Both the position numbers and the translations under genes were made by a program. Below, piece by piece: positions 7,858 to 62,167 of a DNA stretch of 64,000 nucleotides. Every line of letters starts with the position of its first letter. Within the stretch, counting starts at the first letter, position 1. The DNA is from Planctomyces sp. SH-PL62. Its GTDB lineage: Bacteria; Planctomycetota; Planctomycetia; Isosphaerales; Isosphaeraceae. Location of the stretch: positions 620,001 through 684,000 of the forward strand of contig NZ_CP011273.1 of NCBI RefSeq assembly GCF_001610895.1, written 5' to 3'. Below the pieces are notes generated by a model. That model did not search any database, was not told the DNA's origin, and was given only the letters and a program-made list of their open reading frames with translations.

Positions 7858-8687
7858 GCCGCCCGAAGTATCGGATTCTGGCGCTGGACGTCGACGGCAC
7901 GCTGCTCGACCGCTCCGGGACGCTCCTGCCCAGCACCAAGGCCGCCGTGGCCCGCGCCGCGGCGGCCGGGATCCGGCCCATCCTCTGCACCGGCCGCCGC
8001 TACCGCCGGGCCTGGCCGATCGCGGCCGAGCTCGGCATCGACGCGCCGATCGTCTGCAACTCCGGGGCGATCGTCAAGGAGCCGGCCGACGACCGGACGC
8101 TCTGGCGGGCCGACCTCGACCACGACCTCGCCACCGCCCTCATCGACCTCTTCGGCGAGCGCGGGTACGACGTCGTCGCGTTCAACGACCGCCGCCACGA
8201 CGAGCCCGACTTCCGGGTCTCGCGCCACCCCACCGGCCACCGCTGGTTCGACGACTACGTCGCCCAGAACCTCTCCCACGCCGAGATCGCCGCCGACTGG
8301 GCCCACGGCCCCTTCTTCCACGTCTGCGCCGTCGGCCCCCGCGAGGAGATGCTCACGCTGCAGGCGCTCGTCCTGGAATCCCACGGCGACCGGGTCCGGA
8401 CGTTCGTCCAGAAGAGCCCGCGCTACCTGGGGACGATGTGCGAGGTCATCCGCCGCGACGCCGGCAAGTGGTCGGCCGTGCTCCACGTCGCCGAGCAGTG
8501 GGGCGTCGCCCCCGAGGAGATCTGCGCGGTGGGGGACGACGTCAACGACCTCCCCATGATCGAGGGCGCCGGGCTCGGGGTCGCGATGGGCCACGCCCCT
8601 CCGGAAGTCCTCGCCGCGGCCGACCTCGTCGTCCCCGACCACGACAACGACGGCGTCGCCGCGCTGATCGACGGCCGCCTCCTCTGA
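7854..8687 (+). CDS. Cof-type HAD-IIB phosphatase
   Basis: This 277-residue protein overlaps the preceding gene by 4 bases. It has all HAD motifs: DVDGTLLD near residue 11 (nucleophile and acid Asp), the Thr of CTGRRY, Lys in RRDAGKWSAV and GDDVNDLPMIEGAG for magnesium binding. The large C2-type cap between motifs II and III places it in the Cof/HAD-IIB group, which dephosphorylates sugar phosphates and cofactor precursors. The coupling to the LarA-like gene suggests it handles a phosphorylated form of the same substrate family, but that is inference. Confidence 0.88.
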   Translation: MSRPKYRILALDVDGTLLDRSGTLLPSTKAAVARAAAAGIRPILCTGRRYRRAWPIAAELGIDAPIVCNSGAIVKEPADDRTLWRADLDHDLATALIDLFGERGYDVVAFNDRRHDEPDFRVSRHPTGHRWFDDYVAQNLSHAEIAADWAHGPFFHVCAVGPREEMLTLQALVLESHGDRVRTFVQKSPRYLGTMCEVIRRDAGKWSAVLHVAEQWGVAPEEICAVGDDVNDLPMIEGAGLGVAMGHAPPEVLAAADLVVPDHDNDGVAALIDGRLL

Positions 8688-8738
8688 GCGGCCCCGCACA
8701 TCTCCTAATTCATTCGTCAAAAAATCATGGCTTCATGC

Positions 8739-8768
8739 TTGCCGTCCCTGACGGATGGCGGCTAGACT
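8739..8768 (+). promoter_or_regulatory. Candidate promoter for the DUF1559 gene at 8890
   Basis: TTGCCG (8739-8744) and TAGACT (8763-8768) are separated by 18 bases. The pair lies in an unusually AT-rich patch (8700-8740) inside a GC-rich region, about 120 bases before the start codon. The match was made by eye. Confidence 0.4.
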
Positions 8769-8889
8769 CCGACCGCGACGAGCTTCCCTCGCGAGCCGAC
8801 GGGCGATGCAGCTCATGGGCTCTCGGGGAATCCCGCCCCAGCTCCCCGCGCGCATCTTTCTCTCATCGCATCGTCGGAGGACGCCGTCC

Positions 8890-9999
8890 ATGTCCCGAGC
8901 CAATCGTCGCGGATTCACGTTGATCGAGTTATTGGTGGTCATCGCGATCATCGCGGTCCTGATCGCGCTGCTCTTGCCCGCCGTGCAATCGGCGCGGGAG
9001 GCCGCCCGCCGCGCGCAATGCACGAACAACCTCAAGCAGTTGAGCCTGGCGGCGCACAACTTCGAGTCCACCAACGGTTTCTTCCCGCCGGGCTTCGGCG
9101 CGACGCCGACGATCAACGTCCCGCTCCATCCCCGGCCCACGCCGCTGGTCACGATGCTCGGCTATCTGGAAGGGGCGAACCTCTTCAACGCGTACAACTT
9201 CTCCTATAACCTGAACGGCATCTACAACAAGATCAACGACGGCACGATGGGCGACCCCAATATCACGGCGGGCGCGCTCCTGATCTCGGCCTATATCTGC
9301 CCGTCCGACCCGACGAGCATCAGGCTCAAGGGGATGATCGGCTATAACAACTATTTCGGGTCGATCGGCGGCACCTCCTGCCCCGAGCTGGGGCCCCCGC
9401 CGGCCGGCTACGCGGCGAACAAGACCGAGGTCGACGCCAATCAGGCGGGCGTCTTCAACGTCCGACTCGACTACGGCGCGCCGCTCCAGGTCAACGGAGC
9501 CTATAGCCCGGATTACCAGCGGGTCTCCGGAAATTGCACGATCGCGTCGATCTCCGACGGAACGAGCAACACGTCGATGTTCTCGGAGACCCTCCGCGGG
9601 ACCTCGAACGCCAACGTCGCGAGCGAGCTGGACACGAGCAGCCTGCTGAACGTCTACAGCGTCGCCGCCGGGGACTTCACGACCAGCGTGCTCCCCTCCC
9701 CCGTTTCGTGCCTCGCGGGCGCCCGCCTTCGGTATCGCGGGCAGCAGTATTATCGCGGGATCGCCCCGATGGCCTTCTTCTCGCACACCCAGACCCCCAA
9801 CGCCAGGACCTACGACTGCGCCAACAGCTCCGACTTCATCTGCGCCCACATCGCCGCCCGCAGCAAGCATTCGGGGGGCGTCAACGCCTCGTTCGCCGAC
9901 GGCTCGGTCCGATTCATCAAGGATTCGATCAACCCCGCGACCTGGAGGGCTCTCGGCACCCGATCGGGGGGCGAGGTCGTCAGCTCCGACGCCTACTGA
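8890..9999 (+). CDS. DUF1559 pseudopilin-like protein
   Basis: The protein has 369 residues from MSRANRRGF, with a GGAGG 9 bases upstream. The N-terminus is a type IV prepilin/type II pseudopilin signal: the cleavage site is [10 protein letters not shown], followed by a 20-residue hydrophobic helix ([17 protein letters not shown]). [15 protein letters not shown] is the conserved start of the DUF1559 domain, and [19 protein letters not shown] near the C-terminus is the H-x9-DG signature. These proteins are massively expanded in planctomycetes and thought to be exported by a type II/IV-pilus-like machine; their role is unknown. It is one of four paralogues in this window. A small lipoprotein gene follows 94 bases downstream. 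Confidence 0.95.
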
Positions 10000-56030: not shown

Positions 56031-56062
56031 GTGGGTCGACCGAGCAAGCTCAGTCGACCCAC
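56031..56062. terminator. Inverted repeat across the end of the NtrC-like gene
   Basis: GTGGGTCGAC (56031-56040) and GTCGACCCAC (56053-56062) pair perfectly; an inner GAG/CTC pair and a CAAG tetraloop extend the hairpin past one mismatch. It covers the stop codon at 56050 and separates two convergent genes. No T tract on either side, so termination strength is doubtful. Confidence 0.55.
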
Positions 56063-57618
56063 ATCGGCTCGTCGACGAGCAGCCCGTACTTCTTCATCTT
56101 CTTGTAGAGCGTCGTGCGGTTGATGTCCAGCATCCGCGCGGTCTCCTGGCGGTTCCAGTTGAGCGCCTGGAGGGCCTGGATGATGATCTGCTTCTCGGGC
56201 TCCTCCAGCGCCTCCTTCAGGGGCCGGATTCCCATCGGCAGGTGGGGCCGGCCGTTGTTCGTGCGCGCCCCCCGGCCGCCCCGGTGCGGGTTCAGGATCG
56301 GCCCCAGGTGGGTCGCGGTGATCCGGGGACCGTGGCAGAGCACCACGGCTCGCTGAACGACCCCTTGCAACTCGCGGACGTTCCCCGGCCAGTCGTGGCG
56401 CTGGAGGACCTCCAGGGCGTCCCGCGTGAAGCCGGCCACGTTGCGGTCGAACTGCTCGGCGAACTTCGACCGGAAATGCTCGGCCAGGAGCTCGACGTCG
56501 TGGCCGCGATGCCGGAGCGGCGGCATCGCCAGGCGGAGCGAGCTGATGCGCTGGTGCAACTCCTGGCGGAACCTCCCCTGCTCTACCAGGGAACCCAGGT
56601 CCTCGCTGGTGGAGAGGATGATCCGGGCCATGGCCCGCCGGTAGCCCCCCGACCGCCCGGAGGCCGCCTCCATATCCTGAAGCTGGATCTCGCGAAGGAG
56701 CTGGAGCTGGAGCTGCGAGTCCAGCGCCCCCACCTCCTCGATGAAGAGGGTCCCCCCCGCGGCGCGGGCCAGCTTGTTCGTCCATTCCAGGCCGAGGTTC
56801 TTCTGGGGTGAGGCCGGGCCGTCCTGAGCGTCACCCGCCGAGCTTTCGATCAGCTCGGCCGCGTGCAGGGCGACGAACGGACGGTCCCCATGACCCGCGC
56901 CCAGGTGGAGCCGCAAGGCCAGCTCCGACTTCCCGGTCCCCGGCTCTCCCTCGATCAGGACGGTCGCCGAGGAGGCGGCCAGCGATCCCGCCAGCCCCAG
57001 GATCTGACGCAGGCAAGGGTCGGCCCCAACGAAGTCGCGATCGGCGGCCTGGTCGATCGGGGCGGTCCCGACGTGCTCCGCGAGGGCTTCGGCCGCAGGT
57101 CCGTCACTTCCCTGATACGCGGAGTAGGAGGAGTCCGACGCGACCGAGGCGTTCGAGGCCCCCGGCCCGCCGCCGAACCCTGGGCGAGAGCCCGAGGCCG
57201 GGTCGAGCGGGCCCCCCGACGCGAAGGAGGCCGACGACGGCCGGCGGTCGGCGTTCTGCTCGAGCGCCTGCAAGACCGCGGCGCGAAGCTCGGCGGCCGG
57301 GGCGGGGTATCTCAGAACCGCCGCCGCCCCCTGCTTCGTCGCCTCCTTCGCCCGCTCCGCATGGAGGCGGGGGAACATCAGGACGACCGGGGTGCGGGCG
57401 TGCTTCCGCCGCACGTAACTCAAAAGTTCGAGGCAGTCCGAATCGCCCGGGTCGACGCTCGCGAGCACGAGGTCCGCGGGGTCCCGCTCCAGAAGCCGGA
57501 GCGCCGTGCGATCGTTGGGCGCCTCGTCGATGACGTGGCCCAGCGACTTCAGCATCGAAGTCAGCAACGCCAGGCCGCTGGCGTCGGGGCAGACGATGAG
57601 GATTCGATTCTTGTGCAT
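56050..57618 (-). CDS. NtrC-like AAA+ regulator with degenerate receiver and no GAFTGA loop
   Basis: The 522-residue protein has a receiver-like domain (1-120), an AAA+ domain (about 195-445) and a Fis-type helix-turn-helix (about 472-513, NRQETARMLDINRTTLYKKM). Walker A GEPGTGKS is at 224-231, Walker B TLFIEEV at 290-296 and the arginine-finger motif FRQELHQRI at 350-358. The receiver lacks the phosphoacceptor Asp (Ser54 in ADLVLASV), the first acidic pair (C10-P11-D12) and the conserved Lys (Tyr104). The GAFTGA sigma-54 loop is absent: after LIES the sequence is SAGDAQDGPASPQ. It therefore probably acts without phosphorylation and may not activate sigma-54 polymerase in the usual way. Target genes unknown. 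Confidence 0.88.
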   Translation of the reverse strand: MHKNRILIVCPDASGLALLTSMLKSLGHVIDEAPNDRTALRLLERDPADLVLASVDPGDSDCLELLSYVRRKHARTPVVLMFPRLHAERAKEATKQGAAAVLRYPAPAAELRAAVLQALEQNADRRPSSASFASGGPLDPASGSRPGFGGGPGASNASVASDSSYSAYQGSDGPAAEALAEHVGTAPIDQAADRDFVGADPCLRQILGLAGSLAASSATVLIEGEPGTGKSELALRLHLGAGHGDRPFVALHAAELIESSAGDAQDGPASPQKNLGLEWTNKLARAAGGTLFIEEVGALDSQLQLQLLREIQLQDMEAASGRSGGYRRAMARIILSTSEDLGSLVEQGRFRQELHQRISSLRLAMPPLRHRGHDVELLAEHFRSKFAEQFDRNVAGFTRDALEVLQRHDWPGNVRELQGVVQRAVVLCHGPRITATHLGPILNPHRGGRGARTNNGRPHLPMGIRPLKEALEEPEKQIIIQALQALNWNRQETARMLDINRTTLYKKMKKYGLLVDEPMWVD

Positions 57619-57863
57619 TCGGTTGCCTTCTCTCGGTGTTCCCGCCTGAGCCGCAGCCCTGGACGGCGAGCCTCAGGTGGACGGGCGACGAGCCTGGGCC
57701 GATCCGCCCCGGACGGATCGGCAAGTCGGAAATCATGGGGCGTTCGTCATTTGCAACGCCGCATCGACTGCTCGACTCGCATGTCTCTCTGAATGAACGT
57801 CTAAGTCACGGATGCATCACAGTCAAAGAGAAGATCCCCGCCGAGGCCGTCCTTTCGCACGAT

Positions 57864-58748
57864 TCAGGCACGAGGATGCGCGCCCTGGTAGACGTCCAGG
57901 AGCCGCTCCTGGGTCACGTGAGTGTAGATCTGGGTCGTGGTCAGGTTTCGATGGCCGAGCAACTCCTGCACGCTCCGAAGGTCGGCCCCTCGGTCGAGCA
58001 GGTGGGTCGCGAAGCTGTGGCGGAGCGTGTGCGGGCTGGCCTCGCTGCGGACCCCCGCGCGGGCGAGGTGGTCCTCCAGCAGCCTCCCCACGCTGCGAGA
58101 CGTCAGCCGGTCGCCGTAGCGATTGAGGAACAGCGCCCGCTCGTCGGCGTGGCGAGGGGTCCGGGACGCCAGGTGGGCCCGGATCCAGTAGACGGCCATC
58201 GCCCCGATCGGGCAGAGTCGCTCGCGTTTGCCCTTGCCTCGCACCCGCACCAGCTCTTCCTCCAGGTCCAGGTCCTCCAGGTCGAGCCCCACCACTTCGC
58301 TGACCCGCAACCCCCCGCCGTACAACGTCTCGAACATGGCCCGGTCGCGGCGACCCAGCGCCTCGCCGACGGGGATCGAATCGAGCAGACGGACCACCTC
58401 GTCGACCCGCAGGAGTTTCGGCAGCCGTTTGGGCTGCTTCGGATTGCGAAGCGCCGCCGCCGGGTCCGCGGCGAGCTCGCCGCCGCGACGGAGGAAGCGA
58501 AAGAACGAACGAAGGCTCGCCAGCCGCCGCGCCACCGTCGAGGCCGCATACCCCTGGCCGGTCAACCAGGCCGAATATCGGCGCAAACGTCGCGCGTCGA
58601 CCGCCGCCGGATCGTCGGCCGGTCCCCTCGTCTCTTCCAGGAAGCGCAGGAAGAGCCCCAGGTCGTCCTCGTACGATCTCAGAGTATGCACAGAGGACTG
58701 CCGCTCAACTCGCAGATGGTCCAAGAACGCCTGGATTCGAGCTTTCAC
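57864..58748 (-). CDS. XerC/XerD-type tyrosine recombinase
   Basis: The 294-residue protein has an N-terminal SAM-like domain (IQAFLDHLRVERQSSVHTLR) and a catalytic domain with the full tyrosine-recombinase set: Arg148 (GGGLRVSE), Lys172/174 (RGKGKRER), His240 and Arg243 (HTLRH), His266 (LGHRN) and Tyr275 (IYTHVT). The size and motifs match XerC/XerD, which resolve chromosome dimers at dif; no dif site was recognised here. It precedes the tRNA genes in the opposite orientation with nothing that marks an integrated element. Confidence 0.92.
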   Translation of the reverse strand: MKARIQAFLDHLRVERQSSVHTLRSYEDDLGLFLRFLEETRGPADDPAAVDARRLRRYSAWLTGQGYAASTVARRLASLRSFFRFLRRGGELAADPAAALRNPKQPKRLPKLLRVDEVVRLLDSIPVGEALGRRDRAMFETLYGGGLRVSEVVGLDLEDLDLEEELVRVRGKGKRERLCPIGAMAVYWIRAHLASRTPRHADERALFLNRYGDRLTSRSVGRLLEDHLARAGVRSEASPHTLRHSFATHLLDRGADLRSVQELLGHRNLTTTQIYTHVTQERLLDVYQGAHPRA

Positions 58749-60538: not shown

Positions 60539-62167
60539 ATGACGCGGCTCACGGGGACTCGGCGCGACGAACTTGCGTGCTCGATCGAGCGGTTGTTCGA
60601 CGCAGGTTCGGTCGTCGGGCTGACGGAGTCGCAGCTCCTGGAGCGGTTCGCCAGCCGTCGCGACGAGGGGGCCTTCGCGGCGATCGTGGAGCGTCACGGG
60701 CCGATGGTCCTGGGCGTCTGCCGACGATCGCTCCGCGATCCCCACGACGCCGAGGACGCATTCCAGGCCGTCTTCCTGATCCTGGCGCGCAAGGCGGGGG
60801 GGCTGCGGTGCAAGGAGCAGGTCGGGAACTGGCTCTACGGCGTGGCCTGCCGCGTCGCGGCCCGCGCCCGCGTCGAATCCATCCGTCGTCGGGCGAAGGT
60901 CGCGACGACCGACGACGGCGCGCGGCTTGAGGTCGACGTCCGCAAGCCCTCGGCCGACGACCCCGCGCACGCCCTGGCCTGCGAGGAGGAGTGGGTCCGG
61001 CTCCACGAGGAAATCCGGAGGCTGCCGGGTCGCTATCGCGGGCCGGTGGTCGCCTGCTATTTCGAGGGGAGGACGCACGAGGAGGCGGCCGCGCTCCTGG
61101 CCTGCCCCGTCGGGACGGTCAAGGGCCGGCTCGCCCGCGCCCGCGACCTGCTTCGCCGCCGCCTGGGGTCCCCGGGAGCGGCGGTCCTGGAGGCCGTGCT
61201 GGCGACCGCTTTCGCGTCGGCCGAGCTTCGCGCCGGAGTGCCGGCCTCGCTCGCCACTGAGACCGTGCATCACGCCCTGGCCCTCGCCGCCGCCCCGTCC
61301 GTCGCCTGGATGACCACCCCGGCGCTTTCGCTGTCGGTCCGAACTCTCACCGAAGGAGTCCTCCAGGCCATGTTCCTCACCCAGATCAAGATGGCGTCGC
61401 TTGCCGCGATCCTGGCGTCCACGGGCTTGCTCGTCGCCGGGGCCTCGTTCGCCTCCTCCCAGGACGGGGCCGACGACGGCCGGGAATTCGCTGCAACGAC
61501 AGCCACCACCGTCCCTGAGAAGGCTGGGTCGCCGATCGCCAAGGCGACCGCCACGCAAACCAAGCAGACCGTCGGCGGCGGCGGGATGGGCGGGATGGGG
61601 ATGATGCCCGGGATGATGATGGGCGGCGGGGGAGCGTCGGAACCTTCGCCGGCCGAGGTCCGCCAGAAGATCGCCGGGCTCTCGGCCTCGATCTCCAATC
61701 TCGATGAGAATCCCCAGAACGAGGCCCTTCGCGAGGCGCTGGCCTCCCCTTTCACCCTGCGGACGGACGAGGATCATTCCACGCTCGGCGGCCTGCTCGA
61801 TCAGATCAAGGGATCGGTGAAGACGGCTGACGGCAAGAAGATCCCGATCTACGTCGATCCGGTGGGCCTGGAAGAGGCCGGGGCGTCCCTCGATTCGCCG
61901 GTGTCGATCGATCTGGAGGACGTCCCGCTGAAATTCTCGCTCCGGCTGATGCTCAAGCAGATCGGCCTGGCCTACTGCGTCCGCGACGGGGTGTTGATCA
62001 TCAGCTCCCTCGAAGGCGTCCAACAGGAGTTGCTGGAAGCCCAGAGAGAGCTGATGGGCCTCCACCCCGACAAGGTCATCATGGGGCCGGACGGGCCGAG
62101 CTTCGGGTTCGGCGGCATGGGCGGCATGGGAGGCGGCAGAGGGGGAATGGGTCAAGGGATGCGCTGA
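60539..62167 (+). CDS. ECF sigma factor fused to transmembrane helix, Met/Gly-rich linker and secretin-N-like domain
   Basis: The 542-residue protein starts at ATG 60539. Sigma region 2 is at about 40-115 (RDPHDAEDAFQAVFLILARK, NWLYGVACRVA) and region 4 at about 150-210 (LPGRYRGPVVACYFEGRTHE, VGTVKGRLARARDLL). A transmembrane helix (283-303) follows, then a Met/Gly stretch (346-366, GGMGMMPGMMMGGGG), an STN/secretin-N-like domain at about 436-490 (YVDPVGLEEAG, LKFSLRLMLKQIGLAYC, GVLIISS) and a second Met/Gly tail. This planctomycete layout suggests a sigma factor held at the membrane and released by a periplasmic signal. It abuts the convergent TPR gene with a 2-base gap. Confidence 0.9.
   Translation: MTRLTGTRRDELACSIERLFDAGSVVGLTESQLLERFASRRDEGAFAAIVERHGPMVLGVCRRSLRDPHDAEDAFQAVFLILARKAGGLRCKEQVGNWLYGVACRVAARARVESIRRRAKVATTDDGARLEVDVRKPSADDPAHALACEEEWVRLHEEIRRLPGRYRGPVVACYFEGRTHEEAAALLACPVGTVKGRLARARDLLRRRLGSPGAAVLEAVLATAFASAELRAGVPASLATETVHHALALAAAPSVAWMTTPALSLSVRTLTEGVLQAMFLTQIKMASLAAILASTGLLVAGASFASSQDGADDGREFAATTATTVPEKAGSPIAKATATQTKQTVGGGGMGGMGMMPGMMMGGGGASEPSPAEVRQKIAGLSASISNLDENPQNEALREALASPFTLRTDEDHSTLGGLLDQIKGSVKTADGKKIPIYVDPVGLEEAGASLDSPVSIDLEDVPLKFSLRLMLKQIGLAYCVRDGVLIISSLEGVQQELLEAQRELMGLHPDKVIMGPDGPSFGFGGMGGMGGGRGGMGQGMR

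Follow-up and report, generated by a model that had tools for sequence, protein, structure and literature searches.

An NtrC-like protein of the Isosphaerales, probably a former sigma-54 activator turned constitutive DNA-binding regulator

Introduction

What does an NtrC-type regulator do once its phosphorylation switch and its sigma-54 contact loop are gone? The question is raised by a gene of Planctomyces sp. SH-PL62 on the minus strand of the window, as the whole stretch of 64,000 nucleotides analysed here is called (NZ_CP011273.1, positions 620,001 to 684,000). Every Isosphaerales orthologue of the encoded protein has been deprived of its phospho-switch, of the loop that contacts sigma-54 and, among the residues of ATP hydrolysis, at least of the sensor I Asn. 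Still present are the Walker A motif, the arginine fingers and the predicted fold, and the helix-turn-helix (HTH) is nearly frozen. This pattern suggests that a former NtrC-type sigma-54 activator probably became, in the Isosphaerales, a constitutive DNA-binding regulator that would act at sigma-70-type promoters, independently of phosphorylation, ATP hydrolysis and sigma-54.

The gene and its domains

The open reading frame at 56050-57618, noticed in a preliminary description of the DNA, is real. It encodes 522 amino acids with four domains recognised by Pfam: Response_reg at residues 6-115 (PF00072, E 1.5e-08), Sigma54_activat at 197-363, AAA_lid_14 and HTH_8. The features of the locus are the following.

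56050..57618, minus strand: whole gene, 522 amino acids; pseudo-receiver, disordered linker, AAA+ domain without GAFTGA, Fis-type HTH
57262..57609, minus strand: pseudo-receiver, residues 4-119; P11-D12, S54, F82, V101 and Y104 replace the phosphorylation machinery
57043..57261, minus strand: linker, residues 120-192; disordered and unconserved, with a long helix at the same place in the sister protein L079
56521..57042, minus strand: AAA+ core, residues 193-366
56926..56949, minus strand: Walker A, GEPGTGKS, residues 224-231; intact
56779..56847, minus strand: L1 loop region, residues 258-280, without GAFTGA (AGDAQDGPASPQ...)
56734..56751, minus strand: Walker B, TLFIEE, residues 290-295; E294 replaces Asp
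56299..56520, minus strand: AAA+ lid, residues 367-440; holds sensor II, WPGNVREL
56071..56226, minus strand: Fis-type HTH, residues 465-516; nearly invariant throughout the Isosphaerales
57798..57826, minus strand: promoter-like block TTGACT-N17-TAGACG, some 190 nt upstream of the start codon; conserved, putative promoter
57864..58748, minus strand: neighbouring tyrosine recombinase (XerC-like), upstream of the gene

The AlphaFold2 model is confident, with pLDDT values above 90 for the greater part of the receiver, AAA+ core, lid and HTH core; the linker (residues 130-190) is disordered and L1 is weak. Comparison of full-length folds ranks NtrX, NtrC1, NtrC4 and LuxO first, with VpsR and FleQ lower down; overall superpositions are poor because the domain orientations differ.

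Distribution and origin of the losses

Of 45 Isosphaerales genomes, 43 carry one copy of an orthologue; all 26 near-complete genomes, in which the frames are open, are among them. The other two, which gave no match, have a completeness of 68% and 77%. The counts given below refer to 43 distinct Isosphaerales sequences, among them the most divergent members, which were fetched separately. In a tree based on the AAA+ and HTH parts the Isosphaerales proteins form one clade (100/100), the sister clade of which consists of 40 proteins from Planctomycetaceae, Phycisphaerae and related genomes. Both clades remained monophyletic when all 43 sequences were included (90.3/96 and 95.9/98). Nearly every sister sequence in which the region is present has the receiver residues, GAFTGA and the Walker B DE intact, the sole partial exception being L110, with Pro at position 11 and Glu at position 54. 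As intact motifs are confined to the sister clade, the losses are derived. The preliminary description had asked whether planctomycete orthologues share the losses, and had stated that displaced motifs or intact orthologues would refute its view; the losses recur in 43 of the 43 Isosphaerales sequences, and neither displaced motifs nor intact orthologues were found within that order.

Sigma-54 is encoded in all 26 near-complete Isosphaerales genomes. The SH-PL62 genome encodes 11 further NtrC-like proteins, 10 of which retain a GAFTGA-type loop. The loss is therefore specific to the 522-residue protein and does not concern the pathway. Outside the window, the same genome encodes at L012 (G000:C1:2270331-2271350, minus strand) an NtrC-like protein without GAFTGA (LFVPDDPDAPLAR), the Walker B motif of which is degraded (LLIGDL) and the N-terminal part of which does not resemble a receiver.

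The search for an orthologue in the Gemmataceae yielded no clear candidate. A Gemmataceae paralogue family (L112, L140-L158) shares with the Isosphaerales protein a dead receiver in an NtrC-like protein of planctomycetes. However, it forms a separate branch, GAFTGA is mostly kept or slightly altered (often GAFTSA) and the Walker B DE is kept, for which reasons we rejected it as part of the same loss and regard it as an independent case of receiver death. L112, L116, L121 and L140-L158, mostly from Gemmataceae, for the most part show receiver loss without loss of the sigma-54 contact; L116 has lost GAFTGA.

The receiver has lost its phosphorylation machinery

Alignment bears out Ser54 in place of the phosphoacceptor Asp and Tyr104 in place of the conserved Lys, both read earlier from the single sequence. 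The claim that C10-P11-D12 stands for the acidic pair holds for the replacement itself, although one acid, D12, is still there. Two losses had been missed: F82 occupies the position of the switch Thr/Ser and V101 that of the aromatic residue at K-3, so that the Y-T coupling has gone as well. Where a response regulator has its phospho-Asp, acidic pair, Thr/Ser and Lys, the protein has S54, P11-D12, F82 and Y104; it shows what defines a pseudo-receiver, namely the PF00072 match and the receiver fold in the AlphaFold2 model, with the phosphorylation residues gone. The phospho-Asp, the switch Thr/Ser and the conserved Lys are absent from all 43 orthologues, and this order-wide conservation of the losses gives good support to the earlier notion of a phosphorylation-independent regulator.

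The pseudo-receiver has conserved residues of its own (P11, D56, P57, F82, Y/F104 and P105). These, together with a conservation above that of the AAA+ core, indicate that it is not merely decaying, and it may have a structural or binding role. In the model of the intact sister protein L079, a long helix (residues 147-178) runs from the receiver towards the AAA+ part. Since the linker of the SH-PL62 protein is disordered, the element through which a receiver might govern the ATPase has probably been lost too.

The AAA+ domain without GAFTGA

The string GPASPQ, previously assigned to the GAFTGA site, sits in a scrambled L1 loop; GAFTGA is absent and not displaced. It is missing from 43 of 43 orthologues. 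In a search of 37 orthologues for GAFTGA-like strings the sole match was GAFSS in L070, which falls in the long linker of that protein and not in L1, and the remaining six orthologues were checked by eye. A displaced GAFTGA was therefore rejected. Three proteins, L208-L210, retain the length of L1 but have TVGPDGE, TTGPSGE and TIGPNGE at the GAFTGA site; in most other Isosphaerales orthologues the loop is shortened, lengthened or scrambled. The full-length but substituted loops suggest that substitution preceded deletion. Independence from the sigma-54 contact is well supported by the order-wide loss.

Walker A, Walker B and the arginine finger had all been listed as present. Walker A (GEPGTGKS, with K230) and both arginine fingers (R351, R357) are there, as is sensor II (WPGNVREL), but Walker B reads FIEEVG as opposed to FLDE in the sister clade, hence EE instead of DE, and Ser338 stands where sensor I should have its Asn. 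These two changes compromise the hydrolysis machinery. Compared with a sigma-54 activator, the protein retains Walker A and the arginine fingers and lacks GAFTGA, the Walker B DE and the sensor I Asn.

These observations bear on the idea, put forward in the preliminary description, that ATPase oligomers are used for another purpose, perhaps with sigma-70-type polymerase. An ATP-driven oligomer that activates this polymerase would resemble Caulobacter NtrC. Across the order the Walker A Lys is retained in 42 of 43 orthologues, the arginine fingers in 41 and 39, and the catalytic Glu in 30, with Asp at that position in 11 more (Glu/Asp in 41 of 43); moreover, Caulobacter NtrC requires its Walker A and B residues despite the missing GAFTGA. 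In the Isosphaerales protein, however, part of the ATPase is gone: the Walker B Asp is retained in 27 orthologues and lost in 16 (to E, H, K, S, A or Q), the sensor II Arg is retained in 28 and lost in 15, and none of the 43 has the sensor I Asn. In addition, of the folded domains the AAA+ core evolves fastest in the Isosphaerales but is the best conserved in the sister clade. The ATPase claim thus loses its footing, and an ATP-driven activator is unlikely. As constraint continues to act on Walker A and the arginine fingers, some nucleotide use is likely; ATP binding may persist, as may hydrolysis in those lineages that keep DE.

Constraint on the HTH and the gene neighbourhood

The HTH was rightly described as intact. 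Within the Isosphaerales the HTH has a mean identity of 91%, followed by the receiver (64%), the lid (62%), the AAA+ core (49%), L1 (18%) and the linker (13%). This ranking is inverted relative to the sister clade, with 80% for L1, 76% for the AAA+ core, 73% for the HTH and 63% for the receiver. Tree lengths on fixed topologies are 9.04 (receiver), 11.81 (AAA+) and 1.29 (HTH) in the Isosphaerales and 5.95, 4.83 and 4.92, respectively, in the sister clade; as no confidence limits are attached to these lengths and the two clades are not equally deep, only the ratios within a clade are comparable. The nearly frozen HTH indicates that the 522-residue protein is not a decaying pseudogene.

A tyrosine recombinase adjoins the gene upstream, on the same strand, at all 23 Isosphaerales loci examined, but at none of the 26 loci from the sister clade. 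Since other neighbours are conserved too, among them a 154-residue open reading frame in 20 of the 23 loci, the adjacency is no proof of a functional link and may be plain synteny. The gap between the gene and the recombinase contains in many genera a conserved sigma-70-type promoter-like block, TTGACG-N17-TA..., at a distance of about 160-260 nt from the start codon. A scan with a strict sigma-70 consensus did not call it, so that it is the conservation of the block that points to a promoter. Its strict form, searched for in the genomes, occurred at most once per genome, with no control hits, and the block was not found upstream of the sister genes. At about -60 from the ATG many orthologues (e.g. 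L036, L057, L070) share a 5'-UTR element, TCARGGAKGACGNACCGGCC, for which searches revealed neither a consensus RNA fold nor a clear regulon. No widely shared palindrome was found upstream of the orthologues, and the searches with upstream palindromes, the promoter block and the 5'-UTR element yielded no target site or regulon. An upstream leader peptide was rejected owing to the inconsistent placement of ATGs in the 5'-UTR.

The rpoN gene lies about 2 kb downstream in L060 (Singulisphaera acidiphila, 8391-9833) and within about 10 kb in L133 (3759-5252), which is not so in the SH-PL62 genome; with two loci at 2-10 kb, a general linkage to rpoN was rejected. Five Isosphaerales loci (L048, L059, L064, L067, L071) encode, close to the gene, an FHA-GAF protein whose ATPase domain is of the histidine-kinase type. 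Its SH-PL62 counterpart (L136, 376-2094; C1 near 433.6 kb) is about 240 kb away. We do not claim it as the ancestral cognate kinase, as the sister hit, L075, matches over FHA-GAF only. Within the window, 60539-62167 on the plus strand encodes an ECF-type sigma factor with a long Gly- and Met-rich C-terminal extension.

The strong constraint on the HTH, far above that of the sister clade (tree length 1.29 versus 4.92, to be read within each clade), the single copy in every near-complete genome and the recombinase at all 23 loci would also suit a Fis-like protein of global DNA architecture that binds many sites through its HTH and exerts little promoter-specific control. A modest regulon could, however, equally constrain the HTH, and neighbours nearly as conserved as the recombinase reduce the weight of that association, which makes a Fis-like protein improbable. 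The same low probability applies to an elaborated form, in which the sigma-54 activator of the Isosphaerales ancestor would have become a constitutive global DNA-binder without ATPase activity, its frozen HTH occupying many former enhancer sites and its pseudo-receiver and pseudo-AAA+ domain holding together a DNA-silencing or DNA-organising assembly, Fis-like and possibly linked to the recombinase. A decaying relic without function, for which Walker B, L1 and sensor II, each eroded several times independently, might speak, is very improbable in view of the open frames and single copy in 26 of 26 near-complete genomes, the order-wide identity of the HTH, the receiver core with its own conserved residues and the promoter block conserved across genera.

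Comparison with known regulators

The nearest relatives by tree are the intact planctomycete orthologues (e.g. L079, L075, L105; Schlesneria-type and Phycisphaerae), which have the same architecture and share the recognition helix INRTTLYKKMKKYG with the Isosphaerales protein. They differ from it by their canonical receiver, GAFTGA, Walker B DE, sensor I Asn and coupling helix. Several of the Phycisphaerae genes adjoin a histidine kinase.

With its NtrC-like AAA+ domain and HTH and its lost GAFTGA, the protein belongs to the GAFTGA-less relatives of NtrC. In TyrR and DhaR of Escherichia coli the N-terminal sensor domain is of another kind, not a receiver. Both descend from sigma-54 activators, have an altered GAFTGA and depend on sigma-70 (PMC3162934). 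NtrC of Caulobacter, NtrC of Rhodobacter capsulatus and HupR have the order receiver-AAA+-HTH, no longer possess the L1 loop and operate at sigma-70 promoters; some of the GAFTGA-less relatives do so without ATP hydrolysis (PMC10274813, PMC3162934). Phosphorylation of Asp matters in the two NtrC proteins, whereas the Isosphaerales protein has no phospho-site. VpsR of Vibrio cholerae and FleQ of Pseudomonas aeruginosa resemble it as NtrC-family proteins with an atypical use of the receiver (PMC3162934, PMC12632262). VpsR likewise lacks GAFTGA but keeps the receiver Asp, and FleQ is treated as a pseudo-receiver protein; both are c-di-GMP receptors according to the titles of their structures, and both occur among the full-length fold matches. 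Receivers without Asp amount to about 2%, and pseudo-receivers, including FleQ, are known (PMC12632262).

Each single loss thus has precedents, GAFTGA being lost or altered in TyrR, DhaR, HupR, VpsR and the two NtrC proteins and the phospho-residues being lost in FleQ and other pseudo-receivers, and our claim is accordingly moderate. The literature searched contained no paper on this planctomycete family, and we found no described case in which all these losses are combined. Judged by the sequences, what is new is the combination of losses, fixed across an order that has an intact sister clade.

A probable constitutive regulator and its significance

For the constitutive DNA-binding regulator, which we consider the probable reading, the sequences show the losses, their distribution and the pattern of constraint; what we infer is that hydrolysis has ceased and that assembly is constitutive, as well as the operator and the type of promoter. 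The receiver would be a permanently set structural or dimerisation module and ATP, if bound, would be structural. Dimeric or in a higher oligomer, the protein would occupy the operator of its ancestor and would control sigma-70-type promoters by direct contact or by blocking; sigma-54 promoters would not be fired. By analogy with the GAFTGA-less relatives, action with sigma-70-type polymerase is plausible. The regulator may be an activator or a repressor; since the protein seems to have no energy-driven step left, we slightly favour repression or steric control.

The annotation of such genes as sigma-54-dependent regulators calls for caution. The switching of pseudo-receivers was called a mystery in a 2025 review (PMC12632262). 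The two clades constitute a natural experiment: the phosphate switch, the ATPase and the sigma-54 loop survive together in one of them, and in its sister all three are gone, with a DNA reader that has been preserved and is under tighter constraint. They allow a test of whether operators outlive the mechanism of activation and of why a pseudo-receiver is kept.
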